Positions 44,691 to 62,795 of a stretch of DNA of 64,000 nucleotides are shown one piece after another (positions within the stretch are counted from its first letter, which is position 1; every line of letters begins with the position of its first letter). The stretch comes from Antedon mediterranea (taxonomy: Eukaryota; Echinodermata; Crinoidea; Comatulida; Antedonidae), in contig NC_092676.1 of NCBI RefSeq assembly GCF_964355755.1, positions 9,468,288 to 9,532,287 on the forward strand, written 5' to 3'. The notes under the pieces are model-generated. The model was not told the DNA's origin. It was given only the letters and a program-made list of their open reading frames with translations, and did no database searches. A program made the position numbers and the translations under genes.

Positions 44691-44832
44691 CTACATAAAG
44701 ATGTATTGTCCCCCAAAAACATGAAAAATGAAGATTAATTAAATCAGACTTTGAATGTGTTATTTTGTAGCTTTAATAAAGTTAATCACTTCCATAGAAA
44801 AAAAAACGAAAAAAAAAGGTTTTCTATAATCT

Positions 44833-46388
44833 ATATATAAATTTACGTAAGGGCAAAATTCGGTAAATCGCGCCTTACTTCTAGAATTTTTACTCGATGG
44901 TATATAAAGTTGGTTCGTACTTTCGGTACTGATTTTAACCACCTGATGTAACCCTGTTTACTAATTAAATTAAGTTAGATAATTAGTTATTGACGATTAA
45001 AACGAATTTAGGTTCAACGATTTGCCCCAAATAGGGGTGTTTTCCGATCGTGGTATACACTGTCTAATGGATGTCCATCTTGAAAAATACCCGCCACAAA
45101 AATGCGAGGAGGCTTCGCATTTTCCTATCTCCTCCTACGATAATTGTTTTTAATAGCTGAAAACCGGTTGAACAGTTCGAGTACAGCATCATAATGTTGA
45201 AGACAGGCCGATTTTCTTTAAAAAATACTATTTTGATACATTTAATATACGTTTTTACAAATGTATTGATTTGTGATGAATGGAACATTCCAAATTATTT
45301 GGTTTAACCATACAGGTATAGATTTAGATTTATGGGCCCCCTTGGAGAATAAACATAAATAGTATTGCAATGCTGTACAATACTGTTAAGGTATTAACCA
45401 CTTTTGATCGCAATTTGAATCGCAAATTTCTTACTGTGAGTGTTGGTACTGTTAGATGTAATATAAAAATATATACAAATAACCTTTATTACTGTGAGTG
45501 TGGGTAAGCCCTACTGTTAGATTATAAACATATAATATACAAATAAACATTCCAAATTATTTGGTTTAACCATAGAGGTATAGATTTAGATTTATGGGCC
45601 CCCTTGGAGAATAAACATAAATAGTATTGCAATGCTGTACAATACTGTTAAGGTATTAACCACTTTTGATCCCAATTTGAATCGCAAATTTCTTACTGTG
45701 AGTGTTGGTACTGTTAGATGTAATATAAAAATATATACAAATAAACTTTATTACTGTGAGTGTGGGTAGGCCCTACTGTTAGATTATAAACATATAATAA
45801 ACAAATAAATAAACGTTATTACTGACAGTTGCTTCTCAACGTTTGTATTAATTAATAATTTAAAAATATATAAACGTCGTAGTGGTGTATCGTTACATGT
45901 ACTTTACTATTTCAATCGACTATGACAGTGAGAGTTTTAACAAAGTACCGTATTAAATCGTAAATGTTTTACTGTATTTAGTGGTATATTATTTATAGGC
46001 CTATAAAACATTAAAAACAATATTTCGTTACTGAGTGGATAAGAATATATTTTAAAATGTTTCCTCTTTGTACCTATCTTCTTCCCCCATCCCTCAACCC
46101 TTAATGTTACATACAAAACACAAATTGAGTTTGTTTAAATGAGTCCAAATAAAAAAATTTGACTCATTTTGTTTCTCTCTTGGAAGTAATTCCCAGGGTG
46201 CTAATTTTGGTTGACTACATAAATCATTGTGTATATTTATTCGTTTCTGTAAACGATAATGTATTATAGTCCTGCGGTACGTACATTTGAAATCTCCATT
46301 TTTTTTCTCGCTGGAAATACTGTGTATTCGAGAACCATCTGTGGGCACGACCTAGATGGTACGCGAGCAAAGCGAGCGTGCCATCTAG
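44833..46388. mobile_element. Hairpin-ended repeat, head-to-tail copy 1
   Basis: Begins ATAAATTTACGTAAGGGC and ends in hairpin CTAGATGGTACGC-GAGCAAAGCGA-GCGTGCCATCTAG (46,352-46,388). It contains an internal 260-bp direct duplication (45,285 and 45,549, each starting ATTCCAAATTATTTGG). The terminal hairpin ending CTAG before T, and head-to-tail copies, resemble rolling-circle elements (Helitron-like); no helicase is present, so this is inference. A minus-strand reading frame next to the hairpin is shared with copy 2 but differs in length and I do not call it a gene. Confidence 0.6.
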
Positions 46389-47703
46389 TTATATAAATTT
46401 ACGTAAGGGCAAAATTCGGTAAATCGCGCCTTACTTCTAGAATTTTTACTCGATGGTATATAAAGTTGGTTCGTACTTTCGGTACTGATTTTAACCACCT
46501 GATGTAACCCTGTTTACTAATTAAATTAAGTTAGATAATTAGTTATTGACGATTAAAACGAATTTAGGTTCAACGATTTGCCCCAAATAGGGGTGTTTTT
46601 CGATCGTGGTATACACTGTTTTATGGATGTCCAACTTGAAAAATACCCGCACACAATAATACGAGGACGCTTCGCATTTTCCTATCTTCTCCTACGATAA
46701 TTGTTTTTAATAGCTGAAAACCGGTTGAACTGCTCGAGTACAGCATCATAATGTTGAAGACAGGCCGATTTTCTTTAAAAAATACTATTTTGATAGATTT
46801 AATTTACGTTTTTACAAATGTATTGATTTGCGATGAATGGAACATTCCAATCTCTCAGTCTGCCAGTTTGGTTTAACACAAGTAGGTAAATTTATGAGCC
46901 CTTGGAGAATAAACTTGCAATACTTTGACAATACAGTACTGCAAATACGTCCTATTAACCATTTTTGGTCGTCATTTGAATCAAACATTTCTTACTGTGA
47001 ATAGATTAAAAAAAATATATACAAACATTTCTTACTGTGAATACTGTTAGATGTAAAAAAATATATACAAATAAACTTTATTACTGTGATTATGGGTAGG
47101 CTCTACTGTTAGATATATAAACACGTAATATACAAATAAACTTTATTACTGACAGTTGCTTCTCAATGTTTGCATTAATTAATAATTACAAAAAATATAA
47201 ACGTCGTAGTGGTGTATCGTTACATGTACTTTACTATTTCAATCGACTATGACAGTGACAGTTTTAACAAAGTATTAAATCGCAAATGTTTTACTATATT
47301 TAGTCACCGTTAGTGGTATATTATTTATAGGCCTATAAAAAATGAAAACAATATTTCGTTACAGACGTGGATAAAGAATATATTTAAAAATTGTTCCTCT
47401 TTGTACCTATCCTCTTTCCCATCCCTCAACCCTAATTGGGTCTCTTTAAATGAATAAACAATTTGGACTCATTTTGTGGTAAATTTCTCTTTCGGAAGTA
47501 ATTTCCAGGGTGCTAATTTTGGTTGACTACATAAATCATTGTGTCTACTTATTCGTTTCTGTAAACGACAATGTATTATAGTTAAGTCCTGCGGTACGTG
47601 CAAATCGCCAGATTTTTTACCCTGAAAAAAATTACTGTGTATTCGAGAACCATCTGTGGGCACGACCTAGATGGTACGCGAGCGAAGCGAGCGTACCATC
47701 TAG
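46389..47703. mobile_element. Hairpin-ended repeat, head-to-tail copy 2
   Basis: Directly abuts copy 1 and repeats it from ATAAATTTACGTAAGGGC to the hairpin at 47,667-47,703 with scattered differences. It lacks the internal 260-bp duplication and has other small deletions. Confidence 0.6.
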
Positions 47704-49681
47704 TCACTTAAATTCAACCAAAATTCCCTTGGCTGGCAGCCAATTTGACCATTTTTTGCTTAAGTCACATTTTTTTTCAGGTAAATACATTCTTTTTTCG
47801 ATCCAATTTTTGGTCAAAGAGGATAACTATTATGTTACATTAAAATGGAATATTCAACAACTGTTTTACTACATTAGCGGTGGATTGTTCTACATTTGCG
47901 GTTGTTTCGACATTAGCTGCCGTTTTCTACATTACCGGTTGTAACACCTTCCATTAAAAATAATTCTTTGTATAATAGTCTTGGTGTTGCATTGTAAAAT
48001 AAAAATGAAGAGTTCTCACAAAATTATCAAACCTTAAAGAGTATGATCTTCTACAAAGGAAAATCAATCATTTGATGACTATTTCATATAGTCTTAATTT
48101 AATTTTACAATAGGAGCAAATTTGTTTAACCATGAATATTCATTATTATCATGGGCCTTAAATACAGTACAGTAGACTTGCCCCAAGTCTGTATTGTCTT
48201 TTTTATTTATTTGTTTTTATTGCGACCGCGATTTTTGTCTGGAGTATCCAAAATCAAGTAGTATACGTATGAAACGCCATATGTGCCAAAATATTTATCT
48301 TTTTTACTAATATTAAGACAAAACTCCGTCTGGAACCCAGACTAACAGTACAGTAGTTAGAAGTAGAAATTGACCCAGAATAAGAATAAGACCAAAAACA
48401 AATCAATCAATCTTAAACGTAAAGACCGATTCCTCACAATTTTTGACGTTTTGCATATTACTTATTTCTTAAATGAACATTTTATGGTAAATTAAAAAGA
48501 GAGAAACAATGCACTCGCGGTACCGGTGAATGTCCTCTCGTGGACGGTATTTAGGCCTAGGCTTAGTTTTGTTGGCCTAGCTGGTAAACAACATTAACGT
48601 ACGTACGAACATCGTAGGCCTAGTCTTACGTTGTCTAGTTGTTGCATTAATTGCCTTTCTGTTTTTTCCAGAATCCATTAATACACATTGGAGGTACCTG
48701 AAAAGTTACGATAACTTCCATTTATTTTGGTCTCATCGATCGAAAGTAGGTGAATCGATCACAGAAGAAAAACTAAAATATCAATCCGCGCGCAATGCAT
48801 GTTGAGATTTATAGCGGGCCCCTTAAATTATTAGAATCTACTTATTTTTCACATTTGTAACCGTTTAAAGACGAAAAAAGTTATAGAAATAGGACCATAT
48901 AGTATTTATTTTTTTCATTAAATGTAGTTTGTGACCTTAAATTAGATCTAAAAAATTGGACTTTAATGATAACTATTTTGTATTAATACTAAAACAAAAA
49001 TAGTTATGCTTAAGTAATAATTTTAAAAACCCCAATAGAACTATATCTTCTAACAAATGGGCTTCTAATTATATACTATTAAAGGGTAGGCTTCTTTAAA
49101 ACAAATATTTAAATAAACACTATTAACAATCTTAAAATTATTAAAGTTTAACTAAAATGATAATGTGAATTATAATATTGTTTTAATTATTTTACTGTAA
49201 CACGTTTGCCACGAGGAAAATACCCTGATTTTACTGTTGGTTTTAAACAATAGATTATTTATTCATATTTACTTTGGTATATTCCCTGTAAGTTCGATAC
49301 GTGTGAATAGGACTCGGCGGCTCAGACTCGTTTGGATGTTATTATCATCTCCAACAAAATACTACTAGATATGCATTTCATTTAAAGATTGTTGAGAGGC
49401 GAATTAAAGTGGCATGGTAAGAAGTATACAGAAATCATTTTCTGGCGATGAGGGTGGGGTTTCTACAAAATATATTAATTGAAAATGCTATTGGTATTGG
49501 CCTATTGGAGATGTTTTAGAAGAGAGCTATAAGAAGCGTTCTTTTACCAGATATAGTAATTTCACTCAAACTTCTTGGTATGTATACTATATCTAGTTAA
49601 AACTATCGACATTATTAATTTGTCTCCAGTACTATAATAGCTATCGACTTTTTTCTTCGGTACTAGTACAGGTTGTATTCT
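47704..49681. other. Intergenic stretch downstream of the receptor gene
   Basis: No exon recognised on either strand. This is the 3' side of the minus-strand receptor; a candidate minus-strand AATAAA lies at about 49,258-49,263. No kinase-like sequence was found here. Confidence 0.5.
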
Positions 49682-52600
49682 TCATTTATCAATCGTGTTA
49701 CCATAAACATGTTCCGAAAGAGGCGGTTCGGAGTTTGCGTAAACGTGTTCAGCAGAAGAAGTAGCAACAGTAGGCTTAATGCCTTCATATTCACTTTCTT
49801 CACATTTTTTTGACAATGTTTGGTAATCAGTATCTATTGTGCATACATTGGGTTGAGCAGTAGATTGAGTAGAGGATTTACCACCGTCCTTTTCTGAGTG
49901 TTTTCTTCTATATCTAGAATTAAAGTGTAGAATAGATGTTATATTTACCAATTAAACGTCTTTGTGGACAAATGCCAAACTTGCATAAAATAATGATCTA
50001 TTATTTTGCTGAAAATATAAGCATTCTTTTATTTTCTGATTGTGTTCTCTAACTCACGTACCGTCGTCGTGTTTGTTTACTTGTGTCACAGATGCCATCA
50101 TCATGTTATTAGCAAATTTGACTATATATTGCCACCATTTAATACTTTTGTTACAAAATTTTGATCGTCACTATAGATGTTATTATTTGTTCCTCTCTTT
50201 TTTTTAAATAAAGAAACTTTACATTACCGTTTAAATATCAAGGTGATAGCAACAGTGATTACTGCCGAAGTTAGTGAGCCTATTACAAAACCTATTACGT
50301 ATCCTGGAAATATAATAATTTTATATTTGTGTTATTATTTTCATTTTCTAAACGACGTAAGGTGTCTTGAAAAAAATATAAGCTCAATTGAATCTAAATC
50401 ACTGATGTTACACACCTTGTATCTGGTTTGAGTTGTCTTCTTGGTAATCACAATCTGTTCCAAACATAACTTTCTTGCTGCCAGGTGTCCCTTTAACATT
50501 TGAATATGACGCTAATACTGTGAATGTATATTCTTTGCCAAATGCAACTTCAGTTTCTGTTGTGTTTCCTTGCTGAAATATCCCATCACCTGACAGTTCA
50601 TAATGGTACGTCACCTGATAGTCTGGGATGTTACACGTAGAAGCTTTCCATTTCATCTGCAAATGTGTTCCATTTGTGAATGGAATACTTTCTATCGATG
50701 GTTCTGTAGTAGTGAACCACAGAATAAAGACAATATTTAAAATACCATACGTAGTGTCATATTAAATTTACATACAATTATCGTTTTATTGTGTTCGTCT
50801 TTTATTTTATTTTTATTTCCTTTGTTCTTTACATTTATATCATGTATAAACATTTTTAATGATATATTTCTATTCTATTTTTTGTTGTAACGATATGTTT
50901 TCTACTATTTTAACTCTTATTTATATTGTTGTATTTTTCTTGGTGTGTAATTGTTTTGAAACTTATTTTGACTAAATACATAAATGAATGGATGTCGAAT
51001 GAATACTGTATCTTAAGTTTTTGTTTACCTGATGGTGCTGTTTGTATCGTTATTTCTTGTCCCCAATCACCAGGTATCTCAAGATTATTAACAACTCGAG
51101 CGGTGGCAACATAAGCAGTACAACTTGATAATCCTGGTAGTTTAACTTTTAATTGAGAACTACTTGTTGTGTTGATTATACCTTGTATATTTCCACCCAT
51201 GTGCAAATATTGCACTTGATATCGAAGAATATAGTTACATTGGATTTGATCATCAGAAACAGACTAAAATAATATATAATAACATTTAAAGTAGAATAGC
51301 TAAAGTGCCATAATGATTAACAAAAAATTGCAATGTAAACCGCCATAAAAAAACATTTCTATGAAACATAGAAACGACTCTCCCAGTTTATTGCAATATA
51401 GATTAAAGCTAGACATTTTGAAATACCTTTAAACTCAAGATGGCCTGATTATCTTTAATGGTTTCCAACTCAATTTCAGGTTCATCCAATGGCTCTGTAT
51501 AAGATATTAGTAATAAACTTGATTAATTCTGAGAAAAGAGAAACAATAAAAGACAACAAAATATGAATTGCAATCCATAAGAAATAGTATTTTTCAGATT
51601 TATGTAGACAAATAAAATATTTTAATAAATATTTAGAAATGGTGATGGATAAGAACCTGTCTAACATATTCGATATAAGTTGTTTACGGTTAGAAATACC
51701 GCCTCACATTTGACAATTGTTTTCATGATATCGGTAGAATGTGTGACGTTGTATCAAACGAATCGGCTAAATTGGTATGCTACTTTCTGTAAAATCCTAA
51801 ATTTTCCTTTATCAAATAAATATTTTGCTTTAAAAAAACCTAATATATTAGTCTAATTGTTCAGTTGGTTTGCCAATTAATTTGAACAATGCTATTTATA
51901 TATTACTTGTACATATGGTTTTTGTTGATCCAATTGAACTTGCTGGTCCATCAACTTCATTATCACCAACCATCCTCGAAAATTGAGAATAAAATTGATA
52001 TTCTGTATTTGGGACGAGATTACGAATAACAATTAAACTATTATCTTGTTCTTCTGTTAAATCAATGTGCGATGATTTATACGAAAGCTTCCGTTTTGTA
52101 ATTGTTCCTGTTCCATAGTCTTCACCAACAGTCCAAGTGACGTCAAACGTTAGAGTGGTTGCTGTCTGGTTTACAACAGTTGGCGGTTCAGAGCGGTATG
52201 GTAATGCTAATGATTAACGAAAAGAAATCACCAGGCTTATTTAATAAATAGATTAACTAAAGGACATCATTAGGCCTTTAATAACAGTCTATAACCCCCT
52301 TTTTAGGCATTAATTGCTTAAAGTTTACAACGAATCTGTGTTTCATTACCTATGCTGCACTTCGGTCCAGCCCAAGCCTCATGACATCCATTAGGACAAC
52401 TTCCATCTCGATTACAATTTTCAGAATCTTTGCAATGGCATGGGAAGTTGCACAAAACACCAAAGAATCCAGACGAACATGACGTAGGCTCTTTTAAAAC
52501 AAAATAATTAATATGTCACCAATTCAAAGTAAATTAAGTTATTGTGTAAAGTAAAAGAAAAAATAAATAATTTAACATGATGCCCCGAAATTGACATATT

Positions 52601-55600
52601 TTGCAATTTACCAAATCGGCTCAGGGTTACTTTTTAAATATTGTTCATAATATGTCAGTAATGGAAAATATATTAGAGATATGTTCCCCCTGAAAATTAG
52701 CAGTTTTGATTGTTATTCTAGTTTAGGTAATACATTTATATTCTATATCTGAAGTATCAGACGATCAAATTCAAATTAACATACACGCAGAGATGGGTTT
52801 TTAATAGTCGTCATTGCAGTCATCGCTGGCGACGTCATCATTGCCCGACGACGTCATCATTGCAGTCATCGCTGACGTCATATCATCATCATATTTCATA
52901 GCCTACCTTGTTACGCGTTAATGCATACAGCGATGACGGAAAATAGTATATCAATAATTACCTAAACACTTGTCTCCAGTGTAACCAGGTGAACATTTTG
53001 ACCCGGAAGTACATCCTATTTCTAGATTGGGATCGCTTGTATCCCGTTTACAATCTTCATTGGCACAGTTACATTTTTGCCGACATTCCGCTCCATAGTA
53101 TAAATCCTCATCCGGGGTATTGGTGTTTGGGTATAAAACATCACATGCTTAAATCATAATAGTCATAATCATATCATGTTCACACTAATGATATAAGAGG
53201 CCTTATTCAACTGGAATCAATAAGATTAAATCAATAAAAAGCATATGTAAGACGTTTTTATTATTATATAGGCCTAATTTCTAAATATTAAAATATACTG
53301 TAATCGCCATATTATTATGATGCATATAATGGATCAAACATCTTGAACACTGCTATTATTTATGAATCCCATTATGAAATGATATGAGCCATGAGGTAGG
53401 CCTAATTTCTGTTATTCCTCCACACCTGAATTTCGTTCGTTGATTTCTAATGTTATAGCATGATTATCTAATATGATTTTCTCGAATATATCAACACAAC
53501 AACAAATAATAACAGGTTAAATTCGACACAGTAAATTCACAAGCAGTACTGTATAGGCCTAAATAATAATATAGATAATAGAGCAAAGAAACTTGGTCGA
53601 CGATCTCATTAAAACTACTGTTAAAACAATCGTTTTCAAAATGTTAAAAAAGCAATTAATATAGCTAAAAAAGTATAAATATAAGGCCTACTTATTAGAT
53701 GCCTTTATTGACTACAAACCTGTTCTACAATCATTTCCTCCAAAACCATTAATACATGTACATCCAAATGGATCGGTTGGACATAACAGAACTCCAATGC
53801 ACTTTCCATTACTACACGAACCGGTGCATTCACGACCCCAGCCATTATGACCACAACCTGGTATAATTATATCCAAAGACATATACAAAACAGAAATACA
53901 AAAAAAAATCATGTTTACTAATACTATGTCATACATTTACCGGTATAGCGGAACTTTAAAATGAGTAATAAAGGTTGGTTTTGCGTTCTCGTGGCTTAAG
54001 TTCGACATAATCACATGTAAACATTGAATTGAAACATTAATTAATAATAACATGCAACTAATATGATTTATTTTAGAGGAAAAGTAAATCAGAAAGTTTT
54101 CAGAACACGTTATTATTATGAAGTTTAAATAGTACATCAATATTGCAGTGAATTCTTAGAAAAATTACCAAAATGTATTATTTTTTTTAAAGATTTTACT
54201 GGAATCTGAATTTTTTTTCATCACACATTTAAGCCCCCGTTCTCCTGTAAAGTATGTTTTGTGGAGGCTTCAAACGAATAGCGACGACAACCTTTTTACA
54301 ATATGTATTTTATCATTAATTATGTTATTACCAGTTAGACAATTAGCGCCTTTAAATCCTGCTGGGCAAATACAGACACCCGACTTATCGTCACAAACTC
54401 CGCCATTATAACATACGGGACAGTCCATTTCACAATCTGGAAGATTCCATTTTGGTAATGGACAACCTATTGACAAAAACAAGTTGAAAACAGAGTAACT
54501 TCATTTCACCTATAAAAATGTTTCATAATCAAGATATTTACTTCAAAATAATTGTTCTGTGTATCATTATATATAATCCAAATATCACAGAATGATTGTC
54601 ATGTCGTGTATTATCATTGTTCAAGAAATTGGGCCCAGCTCTTAATAGATGAGGTGTATTACTTTGTAATATTAGACTTACCTCTAACAATAAGTCTCAT
54701 GATACCATGGTTACCATCAGGACTATCTCCTGTATAACATTCATATACGCCATCATCTTTCATTCGTATATTTTCAATCACAGCAGACGTACTACCCTTC
54801 AGATTGTGTATTTCCTCACCGTAATTATGTCTCCAACGTAAATCATTAAGATCACCACCTTTACTAAGATTAATAGTGACAGACTCTCCAATACCGACGG
54901 TTATCGTTCGATACTCCATTGCAATAATGGCTGTAATTATAATTGTATTGGTAAACTAATGATTATATATATAATATCATACTGGAAGAAGGTTAACGGG
55001 TGTTTCGTAGTGTAAGTTTCCTCAAAGTTGTCCCCGACGTAAATCGTTAAGATCACCACGTTTTCTGAGATAGTGGAAAACTCACCAATAGCCTACTACA
55101 AGTTATCGTTAAGTCATAGTAATAATAGCTAAAGTATTAGCAACCCAATTATATATGCAACAGGGTTATGATTTTCATAGTTAAGTTATAATCAATAAAT
55201 TATAAATAAAATCATAAAAAGATGACATACATGACATTACTCACCATAATTGGATGTCAATACAATTGCTGAATTTGTGACTACTTCGTCTCTATTTACT
55301 TCAAATAAAAATACACCAACTCTATCAATCTGGGCTTGTATTAAGTTACCAACACCTAGGTACATAAAAGTACTGATTACTCTGAATAAAATTCTGCTAC
55401 TTATGTGAAATATTTTGCCGTCTGGCATATTTGTTGTTTGTTCTCCACTCCCACCTGTATAGCCAGTATCAGCCCAGGTCACGTTATTTTTTCCAGTAAT
55501 ATTTTTGTATAATATTCCAACTGATAAATCTTGAACTGACAACTGAACGTTGTCGCCACGTGCATATCCTCGAAACCAACTAAAAGACGTCACCAGTGGT

Positions 55601-58600
55601 GTGCTAGAAATTGTTGTTATATCTAATGGATCTAAACAAAATATAAACAAATACATTGTGTTTACAAGCCTGGTAAGTTACAAATGTTTATTTATTATTA
55701 AATATTTTTTGAATTAAAGTTTATTAAAAAGTGAAGGATTCTTTTGCAATCTGTAATTTAAATTAAATTTAATTTTAAAAAGCCGTTTTATGGAGATATA
55801 TTCTTTACAGTCATAAAGACAGTTTATTGCCTCATGGTATTATGTGTAAAGATTATATTCAACAAAATACTGCAGTATCTGGTATTGTGCTGTTTTCATG
55901 TACCTTGTTTCCAACTTACTATTTAGGAACCCACCTGTCTAATACAAAGTTAAATTATTTATATTAAAACAGGCATTGATGTTGAACAGTATGTCTAAAA
56001 CCAAACGAAAATAAATATCTAGTATATAATATGCTTTTGTTGATAAAGTGAAATGTTATCAAACTAATAATAATAAAAAAGTATCATATTAGAATAAAGT
56101 ATATTTATTAATGATGAAACTAATTACAACATTAAGAGCCATTGTCTGTAAGAATCAAAGAAATATCAAAAAGAGTGGCAGACTCAAAAAAATGGATTTC
56201 TTTCAAATTTTGCACATGGCTATATATGTGTTGAGAGAAATCAAATATGAAGTATTTTTTATTTCACACGTATATTTCCATGGCAACGGCCAAATTTATG
56301 TTTTTGACAAATTTTGTCCTTTTTTAAGGTTTTTTAAAACGGATATTGGCACTACTTTGATGAACGATATTTTTGTGTTGTTCATTTAATTATAAAAAAT
56401 AATTAGTGTATGCATAATAACAATGCATTGTGTACCTGTTTCAAAATTTTTTATTTTTTTTTTATTTTATACTTTGGGAGATACCATTTATTTAAAAAGG
56501 GGTGTTTTTCACTTTTTTTAAATTGTTCAATGCAACTAAACTTTACTTCACCATAACGCCCAAAGTGGTGTATTTTTTTAGCTGATTTATTACAAATAGG
56601 TAGTTCTAATGTTTAATAATTGATTTCTAAAATAAAATACTGGGGTAAATTTAAAATCTACAAGCAGTGTTGCGAGAAACATAGGCATTTTTATATAAAA
56701 AAAAAACATGGTATATTAGTAAAAACATTTTATTTTCTTTGATTATTTGATTTGAAACTCATTGGTCAGAAAAATTCTTAATGTTTTATATAGTTCTAGT
56801 TGTGTTGTGAGAAAAAAAATTAATTTTTAATTATAGATTCTGTAATTCCCAGTTTTAATGTCATTTTATAGGTTATATCCTCTGGAAATTTGAATAAATT
56901 ATCAGATCGTTGTGAATTTTAATCTTTGCAACAGATTACTCCTCTCTTATTTTGAAGCTCCTCTTTCATTTGTTTACTTCTTTTATTTGCTAACCTAAGC
57001 AGATCCCACATGCCCATCCACCACCACTTTCGACTACCACCCCTCCCCACCCCCACCCCGACTATAACCACAAAAAGATAAACTGCAACACTTTGGTCGA
57101 TCATCCACTATAGAGTGTCAAATGCATGCATTCAAGCACCACCCACACTGCCGCTACTATCGCCCCAATGAATAGACAGATTCAAACTCCTCCATCCCAC
57201 CACCTCCCCCTTTTCTCCAAGCCCCCACCCACCCCAAGTTAAAAATTGCAATGCAAAAGATAGGACATAAAGTTAAGTTTTTAGACCCTCGCCTTCAACC
57301 ACCTAACTATTTAAAAGTCCTGGATCCACCACTTTCCCCTCCCCAAAATAGAACCAATCAAAAGTCAATGATATACTCAGGTATTTTAATGCTACATAAC
57401 AAATATTGAAGCCCTGATTTGAAATTTCATTTCATTTAAGGTCAGCATGTAAAATATCACACTTTATTATTAAATATTGGTTTTAAATTCTATATTTTTT
57501 TTACTGTGATGGTTGGATTCAGAAATAATTATTAATTAATAATTATCTGATAATTGTTTAATTTCCCTTAGTTATGCATAGCAACAGTTACTATGGTAAC
57601 TAAAAATGAGATATTCTTTAGATTTTGCATATTTATCTCATACAAATTTAAATTTGTAGATTATTAGCAGGCATGCCTTATTTGCATTTTCAAATTACCG
57701 TTTCACAAGGTCATATTCGTAAGCACTTTCTTCTGTGATTATTTTTATTCATGAAAACCCCATATTTTATTTACAGCGGCCACCTCCCTTAACGGACGCA
57801 CTTTGAAAAGCCTGTTTGTTCTTCCTATCTAATTAGTGCATTTGGTGCTTACCGTAAGCAGCTGCGAGCACCTTTTTATACTAAAAATGAGATTTTTTGT
57901 AAGCGGCCAATCGAAAAATGTGATACTTATTGCATGGACCTATGAATTAGAGGTGCATGTTTATTGTATTTCTTTATTGATTAGCTTTATTTTGAAGAGG
58001 TTTTAAAAACATTACTGTGAAGAGATGAGAAAACTAGACAGATTTTGACCGACCATTTTTCATATGATAAAAGTTTTTAAAATTTGTCTGAAAATGCTAA
58101 AAAATACTAAACCACCTGATTATAAATAATAATATGCCTACAATTAGCTGGAAAATTGAGAGGCTCGTTTCGTTAAGAATATCGTATATAGCCATAATAA
58201 GTGATTTTGGCCCTTTATCGGCAGAACCTCCCGTAAGGGGTCACCGCCCGTAAGCGGCCACTTTTCCAGGTCCCGAGGGTGGCCACTTACGGGAGGTTCA
58301 ACTGTATTTAACAAAACAATTATCCTTAGTTACGCATAGAAACAGGTTCTAAGATAACATAAATAATACATTTTGACATAACTTGACCCAAAAAATGACC
58401 CTTTCACAAGGTCAGACATTTTCTGGGATTCAGTAGATAAGTAAATTTGGGAAAAGGTAGTAAAGCTATGTAATCAATTGTTTGTAGTCATGAAACCCCA
58501 TATTAAAAATATTGCACTTAGTTCCGTATAGAAACAGTTGCTACAATACACTATAGGTAAAATGTTGATGTCATTTGACCTCAATATGTAAATTTTTTTT

Positions 58601-62099: not shown

Positions 62100-62795
62100 T
62101 TTGGCATATAGTATCAGTACAATGTAAAGATGGGTTGTGTTTTTTAGTGGAAAATGGCCTCATTTTCCATGTAAGTTCGATACTAATGTGAATAGGACTC
62201 TAGTAGTATAATAGCTATCGTCTTTTTTCTTCAGTAAAAGTACAGGTTGTATTCTTAATTAATCAATAAACATGTTCCGGTAGAGGCGGCTCGGAGTTTT
62301 CGTAATCGTATCCAGTAGAAGAAGTAGTAGCTTAATTCCTTAATATTCACTTTCTTCACATTTTTCGACAATGTTTGGTAATCAGTATCTGTTGTGCATA
62401 AATTGGGTTGAGCAGTAGAGGATTTACAAACGTCCTTTTCTTAATGTTTACAACGAAATCTAAAATTGGTAGTTTCATCGGTCAGCGAAGGATCAAGTAT
62501 GTAAGCGGAATTTGTCAGAAATTTCTGTATAAAATTTATGGTCTATTAATGGAAAAAAAACAATAGAATTCGGTGTCGGTAAGGTAAAAACATTAAACTA
62601 CTACTAAACTACTTAAACACATTTTGTTTACATTTTCAAATTTCACTTGAAAATGTCATTGACTTATTGTGCCATTATTTAATAAATTCATTTTAACCAT
62701 AGAAACATCGAGTATACATTGTACATTACACTTGATATCGAATAATAGAGTTACTGTTGGATTCGATCATACTCACTAGAGACGGGCTGAATATA
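62100..62795 (-). pseudogene. Broken second copy of Tie-like receptor 3' exons
   Basis: Minus-strand sequence around 62,260-62,460 aligns with the tail exon of the intact gene. SSTAQPN, CTTDTDYQTLSK and the DNA for NSEPPL and EHVY are recognisable but fall in different frames because of small deletions, and the leading part is scrambled. Around 62,730-62,790 a stretch matches the exon at 51,263-51,029 (Ile-Arg-Tyr-Gln region). The 3' flank similarity continues to about 62,100, including the TAATAGCTATCG and CTCTAGTAG-like words also found near 49,320-49,660. Order and strand match the intact gene, so this is a duplicate that has lost most exons, not a retrocopy. Confidence 0.75.

Follow-up and report, generated by a model that had tools for sequence, protein, structure and literature searches.

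A crinoid Tie-like receptor with a conserved ITAM-like tail, descended by truncation from receptor phosphatases

Activating and inhibitory members of vertebrate paired receptors are usually distinguished by short docking motifs. An exchange of heads between tail types has been described for the CEACAM paired receptors (PMC5112662), and, among invertebrates, ITIM and hemITAM motifs occur in the Botryllus FcoRs and ITAM/ITIM motifs in candidates from the Hydractinia Alr group (PMC12065747). Here we analyzed a 64,000-nucleotide stretch of the Antedon mediterranea genome (hereafter the window), for which an earlier note had proposed an ITAM-type tail on a Tie-like ectodomain and had known of no described example. 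That novelty holds in part: ITAM/ITIM-type tails have already been described in invertebrate receptors (PMC12065747), and what is new here is the Tie-like ectodomain, the origin from receptor phosphatases (RPTPs), and the presence of two tail types within one family.

The window gene, on the minus strand, is predicted to be a single-pass receptor with a variable N-terminal domain, an Ig domain, four EGF modules, three fibronectin type III (FN3) domains, an uncharged transmembrane helix, and a 77-residue tail. We recognized 12 exons between 49685 and 55632, all open and each with adjoining splice signals; a signal-peptide exon of the gene was not located. The variable N-terminal domain (55252-55632) is followed by the conserved Ig domain (54683-54913), whose identity between clustered paralogues is mostly 83-92%, and by EGF-like modules 1 (54336-54464, identified by Pfam and the match to Tie2), 2 (53721-53855, within the Tie2 match), 3 (52963-53145), and 4 (52354-52491), the last two by exon recognition. 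The FN3 domains were found by exon recognition and, except for the first exon of the second domain, also by Pfam: the first at 51911-52207, the second in two exons at 51427-51495 and 51030-51263, and the third at 50417-50710. The exon preceding the tail (50230-50304; GYVIGFVIGSLTSAVITVAITLIFK) encodes the transmembrane helix (GYVIGFVIGSLTSAVITVAITLIF), which contains no charged residues, so an adaptor partner is not implied. The tail itself is the last coding exon (49685-49912), with a canonical acceptor (...aattctag) and an in-frame TGA stop at 49682-49684; it was reported from the minus-strand open reading frame 49682-49951, which reads ...RYRRKHSEKDGGKSSTQSTAQPNVCTIDTDYQTLSKKCEESEYEGIKPTVATSSAEHVYANSEPPLSEHVYGNTIDK*.

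Among solved structures, Tie2/TEK was by far the best match over the Ig-EGF part (E 5e-22; query residues 164-289 against Tie2 156-281), and Pfam returned the three FN3 domains together with EGF and Ig matches below threshold. The ectodomain, with its Ig/EGF/FN3 composition, is thus Tie-like, as the earlier note had it. The accompanying reading as an angiopoietin-receptor kinase did not survive. We found no kinase-like sequence in the 64-kb window, the tail ends at its stop, and the same ectodomain and juxtamembrane sequence belongs to RPTPs in this genome, which together rule out a Tie kinase with an ITAM tail. PTP exons were also absent from the 64-kb window, where the positive controls were strong.

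Two further features of the window lie outside the gene. Upstream of it is a broken duplicate of the tail exon (62266-62449, minus strand; 82.6% identical, with an in-frame stop and frame breaks), beside which no Ig exon match was found. On the 3' side, two adjoining similar units of ~1.3-1.5 kb (about 44830-46390 and 46390-47700) both start ATAAATTTACGTAAGGGCAAAATTCGG; they are probably a dispersed repeat, because an RPTP gene (L036) has related sequence in one of its introns.

A search for the same tail on other receptors of the genome, which the earlier note had called for, gave more than 20 matches, most of them within two intervals of contig C5, 7.69-8.08 and 25.20-25.28 Mb. Copies of the conserved Tie-like Ig exon numbered about 30 and fell at these same locations. 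The window gene is one member of a Tie-like receptor family, about 30 strong, that lies mostly in two clusters on C5; it is itself a lone copy on C7, and the tail closest to its own, at C5 25.284 Mb, is 91% identical. When every C5 Ig exon was matched to the sequence that comes after it, 28 genes were defined. With PF00102 counts taken as lower bounds (150 of 278 candidates were scored), 15 of the 28 had an RPTP juxtamembrane exon, with PF00102 downstream in all 15, and ten had the short tail, with a PF00102 match in none; the remaining three had neither and were left unclassed. Seven short-tail genes form an unbroken block at C5 7.845-7.966 Mb. The longer paralogous tails read on into EYKPIELSKLHDYVMKRQLSFESGFEKEFEV, which we read as the sequence leading into the RPTP catalytic region, and PF00102 matches come after it. 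Real phosphatase activity of the RPTP members is plausible, since at least one paralogue keeps both a canonical D1 active site after splicing (HCSAGAGRT) and a WPD sequence. The family also includes pseudogenes, as in-frame stops occur in the tail and Ig exons of L010 (C5:25.28 Mb), the sister nearest to the window gene, and in the exons (tail or ectodomain) of the RPTP gene L024; L020 is interrupted.

We also observed RPTP paralogues of other kinds. Some (L038, L042, and L043, at C5:7.73 Mb and C1:4.88 Mb) match a second-type PTP domain only, and their long tails contain repeated EPVYxDPE/EPVYxEPE motifs (YxxP) that are possibly Crk-type docking arrays. Within this group, the L026 gene reads QWPKN at the expected WPD position. 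More distant Tie-like Ig/EGF exons are present at C3:13.1-13.2 and 27.6 Mb, C4:1.79 Mb, C5:12.0-12.1 Mb, and C6:26.1-26.4 and 30.4-30.5 Mb; because those at C5:12 Mb and on C6 sit close to PF00102 matches, the Tie-like RPTP superfamily extends beyond the two C5 clusters. We found no relevant open-access paper on echinoderm or Tie-like RPTP expansions, which is weak evidence of absence.

The N-terminal domain is the variable part of these receptors, with a pooled pN of 0.236 versus 0.081 for the next Ig exon. In the window gene and L072-L082, the variation falls in blocks at residues 7-18, 55-66, 79-90, and 95-102, with conserved stretches between them. Its predicted fold is a beta sandwich, and its matches to Ig-like domains are weak (best E 6e-3). 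In a tree of these first-domain heads, PTP-less and PTP-bearing genes were fully mixed, with 7 label changes, no better than the average of 6.4 for shuffled labels, and a single-clade arrangement was rejected (p-AU 1e-4); the closest mixed pair, the PTP-less S_L015 and the PTP-bearing P_L054, share 81% identity. In the tail tree, the short tails formed one clade (support 92/90) with 1 label change, and 0 of 500 label shuffles were as low. Mixed heads on sorted tails are the pattern that would be expected if heads had been exchanged between tail types. Similar, putatively ligand-binding domains are thus found on clustered receptors with different tails, as in paired receptors.

How the short tail arose can be read from a DNA alignment, in which RPTP exons read GGTAACACACAGTTGAACAACCAAGAGTACAAACCCATTGAG and the window reads GGTAACACG--ATTGATAAATGAAGAATACAACC. 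All short tails have in common a gap of two or more bases at the point where RPTP tails read on toward "EYKPIELSKLHDYV"; it is 4 bases in L017/L018, and further changes are present in L011 and L013/L015. Past the stop, remnants of the RPTP sequence are still readable in another frame in several short tails, most clearly EEYKPIELS in L012 (+1 frame). In the window gene, where the gap is two bases, the juxtamembrane remnant in the other frame is LINEEYNLY* (49663-49692, minus strand), to be compared with QLNNQEYKPIEL of intact RPTP paralogues. Because the short tails have this gap in common, are followed by other-frame remnants, and form one clade, they are shown to be truncated RPTPs, descended through an ancestral frameshift in the juxtamembrane exon that introduced a stop just a few codons ahead of the phosphatase region. 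The window gene accordingly retains an ectodomain and a juxtamembrane exon homologous to those of RPTPs. We also reject the idea that the tail exon ends RPTP transcripts at an alternative 3' terminus: 49 kb downstream of the window gene contain 0 PTP exons, and in the clusters the ectodomain of a further gene separates each short-tail gene from the next PTP.

Within the tail, YQTL-SKKCEESE-YEGI (in DTDYQTLSKKCEESEYEGI, 49778-49834) fits YxxL/I-x(6-8)-YxxL/I, with a spacer of 8 and with the -3 position of each tyrosine occupied by an acidic residue, and it comes after the transmembrane exon, as expected of a membrane receptor tail. The commonest ITAM spacer is 7, and CD3 zeta ITAM-2 has a spacer of 8. 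Two YxN sites follow, YAN of EHVYANS (49733-49741) and YGN of EHVYGNT (49697-49705). The ITAM spacing, the acidic -3 positions, and the assignment of YANS and YGNT as YxN sites in the earlier note are all borne out, and its span of 49697-49834 corresponds exactly to D28 to N73 of the 77-residue tail. When window-gene tails were shuffled, the ITAM pattern occurred in 0.23%, two YxN sites in 0.94%, and the two together in 5e-6 of the shuffles. These shuffles, together with the constraint among paralogues (core pN/pS and invariant anchors), rule out a chance origin of the motif.

We then compared the tails of PTP-less and RPTP paralogues. Y31, L34, Y43, I46, Y59, N61, and Y71 were invariant in all eight non-redundant PTP-less paralogues, and N73 was kept in 7/8; the first YxN site is thus invariant in Y and N, and the second in Y. 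The other tail columns averaged 74%, and the hypergeometric chance of finding seven of the eight anchors invariant was 1.9e-4. Among PTP-less paralogues, pN/pS was 0.19 over tail residues 25-46 versus 0.69 over the rest. A strict ITAM was present in 8/8 non-redundant PTP-less tails versus 2/11 RPTP tails (Fisher p 7e-4, with p-values indicative as the compared tails are paralogues related by descent), so retention of the motif is strictest in the tails that have lost the phosphatase. In PTP-less tails, 10/10 had both half-sites, always with a spacer of exactly 8. The RPTP tails depart from the strict form by V at +3 (L021, L022, L024, and L025), by F in place of Y (L026), by loss of the second half (L019), or by lacking the ITAM region (L054-L059). 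The conservation of the tyrosines and spacer length proposed as a check in the earlier note therefore holds among paralogues of this one genome, a setting in which gene conversion can look like constraint. On this comparison the tail motif is shown to have stayed under purifying selection after truncation. The motif is older than the truncation, two RPTP paralogues carrying its strict form, and it therefore need not have arisen for activation.

Candidate signaling partners are encoded in the same genome. A SYK/ZAP-70-type kinase gene with tandem SH2 exons and kinase exons lies at C6:536500-545500. SYK was the best PDB match of its SH2 pair (E 7e-43), and its kinase exons matched ZAP-70 at E 4e-65 and SYK at 1e-64, with one PDB chain labelled EGFR (9p9u) scoring above both. 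The organism thus has a tandem-SH2 kinase of the SYK/ZAP-70 family. The genome also has several Grb2-like genes: their SH3/SH2 exons are present in at least four copies, three of which are arranged in tandem, at C1:643-659 kb and C1:18.58 Mb. The two ITAM tyrosines of this tail are 12 residues apart, a distance that suits SYK-type tandem SH2 domains.

On balance, we think it somewhat more likely than not that the short-tail genes, a PTP-less branch of Tie-like RPTPs with a selected tyrosine tail, are Syk/Grb2-coupled, activating, and paired with RPTP members. A Src-family kinase would probably phosphorylate the tail tyrosines, the tandem SH2 domains of the SYK homologue could then dock in a bidentate manner, and Grb2-type adaptors could dock at the YxN sites. 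Recruitment of both would yield an activating signal. Members that have the same head type but whose phosphatase domains are intact would signal in the opposite sense, and the clusters would constitute a paired-receptor system with an immune or recognition role. Weighing against this reading are the spacer of 8, the greater age of the motif relative to the truncation, the in-frame stops of the sister L010, and the position of the window gene outside the clusters.

Other uses of the same tyrosines have to be weighed. The PTP-less receptors might be decoys or modulators that bind RPTP ligands without Syk signaling, the tyrosines acting mainly as endocytic signals (YQTL, YEGI) and for Grb2 docking. 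Both ITAM half-sites do fit the endocytic sorting consensus YxxPhi, heads are common to PTP-less genes and RPTPs, and the YxN sites are conserved as well as the ITAM anchors; a single YxxPhi suffices for endocytosis, yet every PTP-less tail keeps both half-sites at their fixed spacing, and a SYK homologue is present, and we regard this reading as unlikely. The tail could instead be inhibitory, recruiting SHP-type phosphatases and so replacing the lost domain in trans. Phosphatase receptors were the ancestors, SEYEGI fits the ITIM consensus (S/I/V/L)xYxx(I/V/L), and TDYQTL is near the ITSM TxYxx(V/I). We nonetheless consider such a tail distinctly improbable: ITIM/ITSM pairs are usually 20 or more residues apart, whereas the 12 residues here are ITAM spacing, and, although PTP-less paralogues invariably have S two positions before the second tyrosine (-2), the T at -2 of the first is a non-ITIM residue.

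It seems very unlikely that the short-tail genes are simply decaying RPTP pseudogenes with the ITAM spacing as a juxtamembrane fossil. Their frameshift origin, the stops in the tail and Ig exons of L010, and the interruption of L020 would fit such decay; the recognized exons of the window gene, all open with splice signals, would not, nor would a diversified clade of tails with constrained, invariant anchors and the motif kept in ten copies.

If the activating, Syk-coupled reading is followed further, the pattern of heads and tails suggests opposing paired receptors constructed in a manner hitherto undescribed. Tentatively, a paired system may have been built from RPTPs, in which variable heads are exchanged between an inhibitory PTP form and an activating frameshifted form with a selected Syk-coupled ITAM. 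Were this true, the inhibitory arm would be a built-in phosphatase and the activating arm would follow from phosphatase loss, a direct genomic route from RPTPs to immunoreceptor-style signaling. Syk-linked receptors with variable heads would then have one more independent origin, and how such systems arise would become testable, starting from one frameshift.

Compared with known systems, the window gene resembles Tie2/TEK in its alignable Ig and EGF region and its Ig-EGF-FN3x3 layout, but it lacks a kinase domain, has four EGF modules, and has paralogues with phosphatase domains. With tandem-PTP receptor phosphatases it shares gene architecture and a homologous juxtamembrane exon, found in 15 clustered paralogues, some with D1 intact (HCSAGAGRT); unlike them, it has no PTP domain. 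The tail agrees with the ITAMs of CD3 zeta, CD79a/b, DAP12, and FcR gamma in the YxxL/I-x(6-8)-YxxL/I pattern and the acidic residues before each tyrosine, and differs in its spacer of 8 rather than the usual 7, in its position on the ligand-binding chain, and in its non-homologous host protein. Botryllus FcoR and Hydractinia Alr are likewise clustered invertebrate receptor families with ITIM, hemITAM, or ITAM tails (PMC12065747). Their ectodomains are unrelated, descent from receptor phosphatases is not described there, and FcoR tails carry ITIM, hemITAM, or core motifs, in contrast to the full YxxL-x8-YxxI beside YxN sites seen here (PMC12065747). The nearest parallel in vertebrates is of the CEACAM1/CEACAM3 type, with clustered paralogues, similar N-terminal ligand-binding domains, opposing tails, an activating member with its own ITAM-like motif, and heads swapped between tail types (PMC5112662, PMC2832619). 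In the crinoid family, however, the ectodomain is Tie-like, the putative inhibitory partner bears its own phosphatase domain rather than ITIMs, and the ITAM-like member came from frameshift truncation of a phosphatase member.
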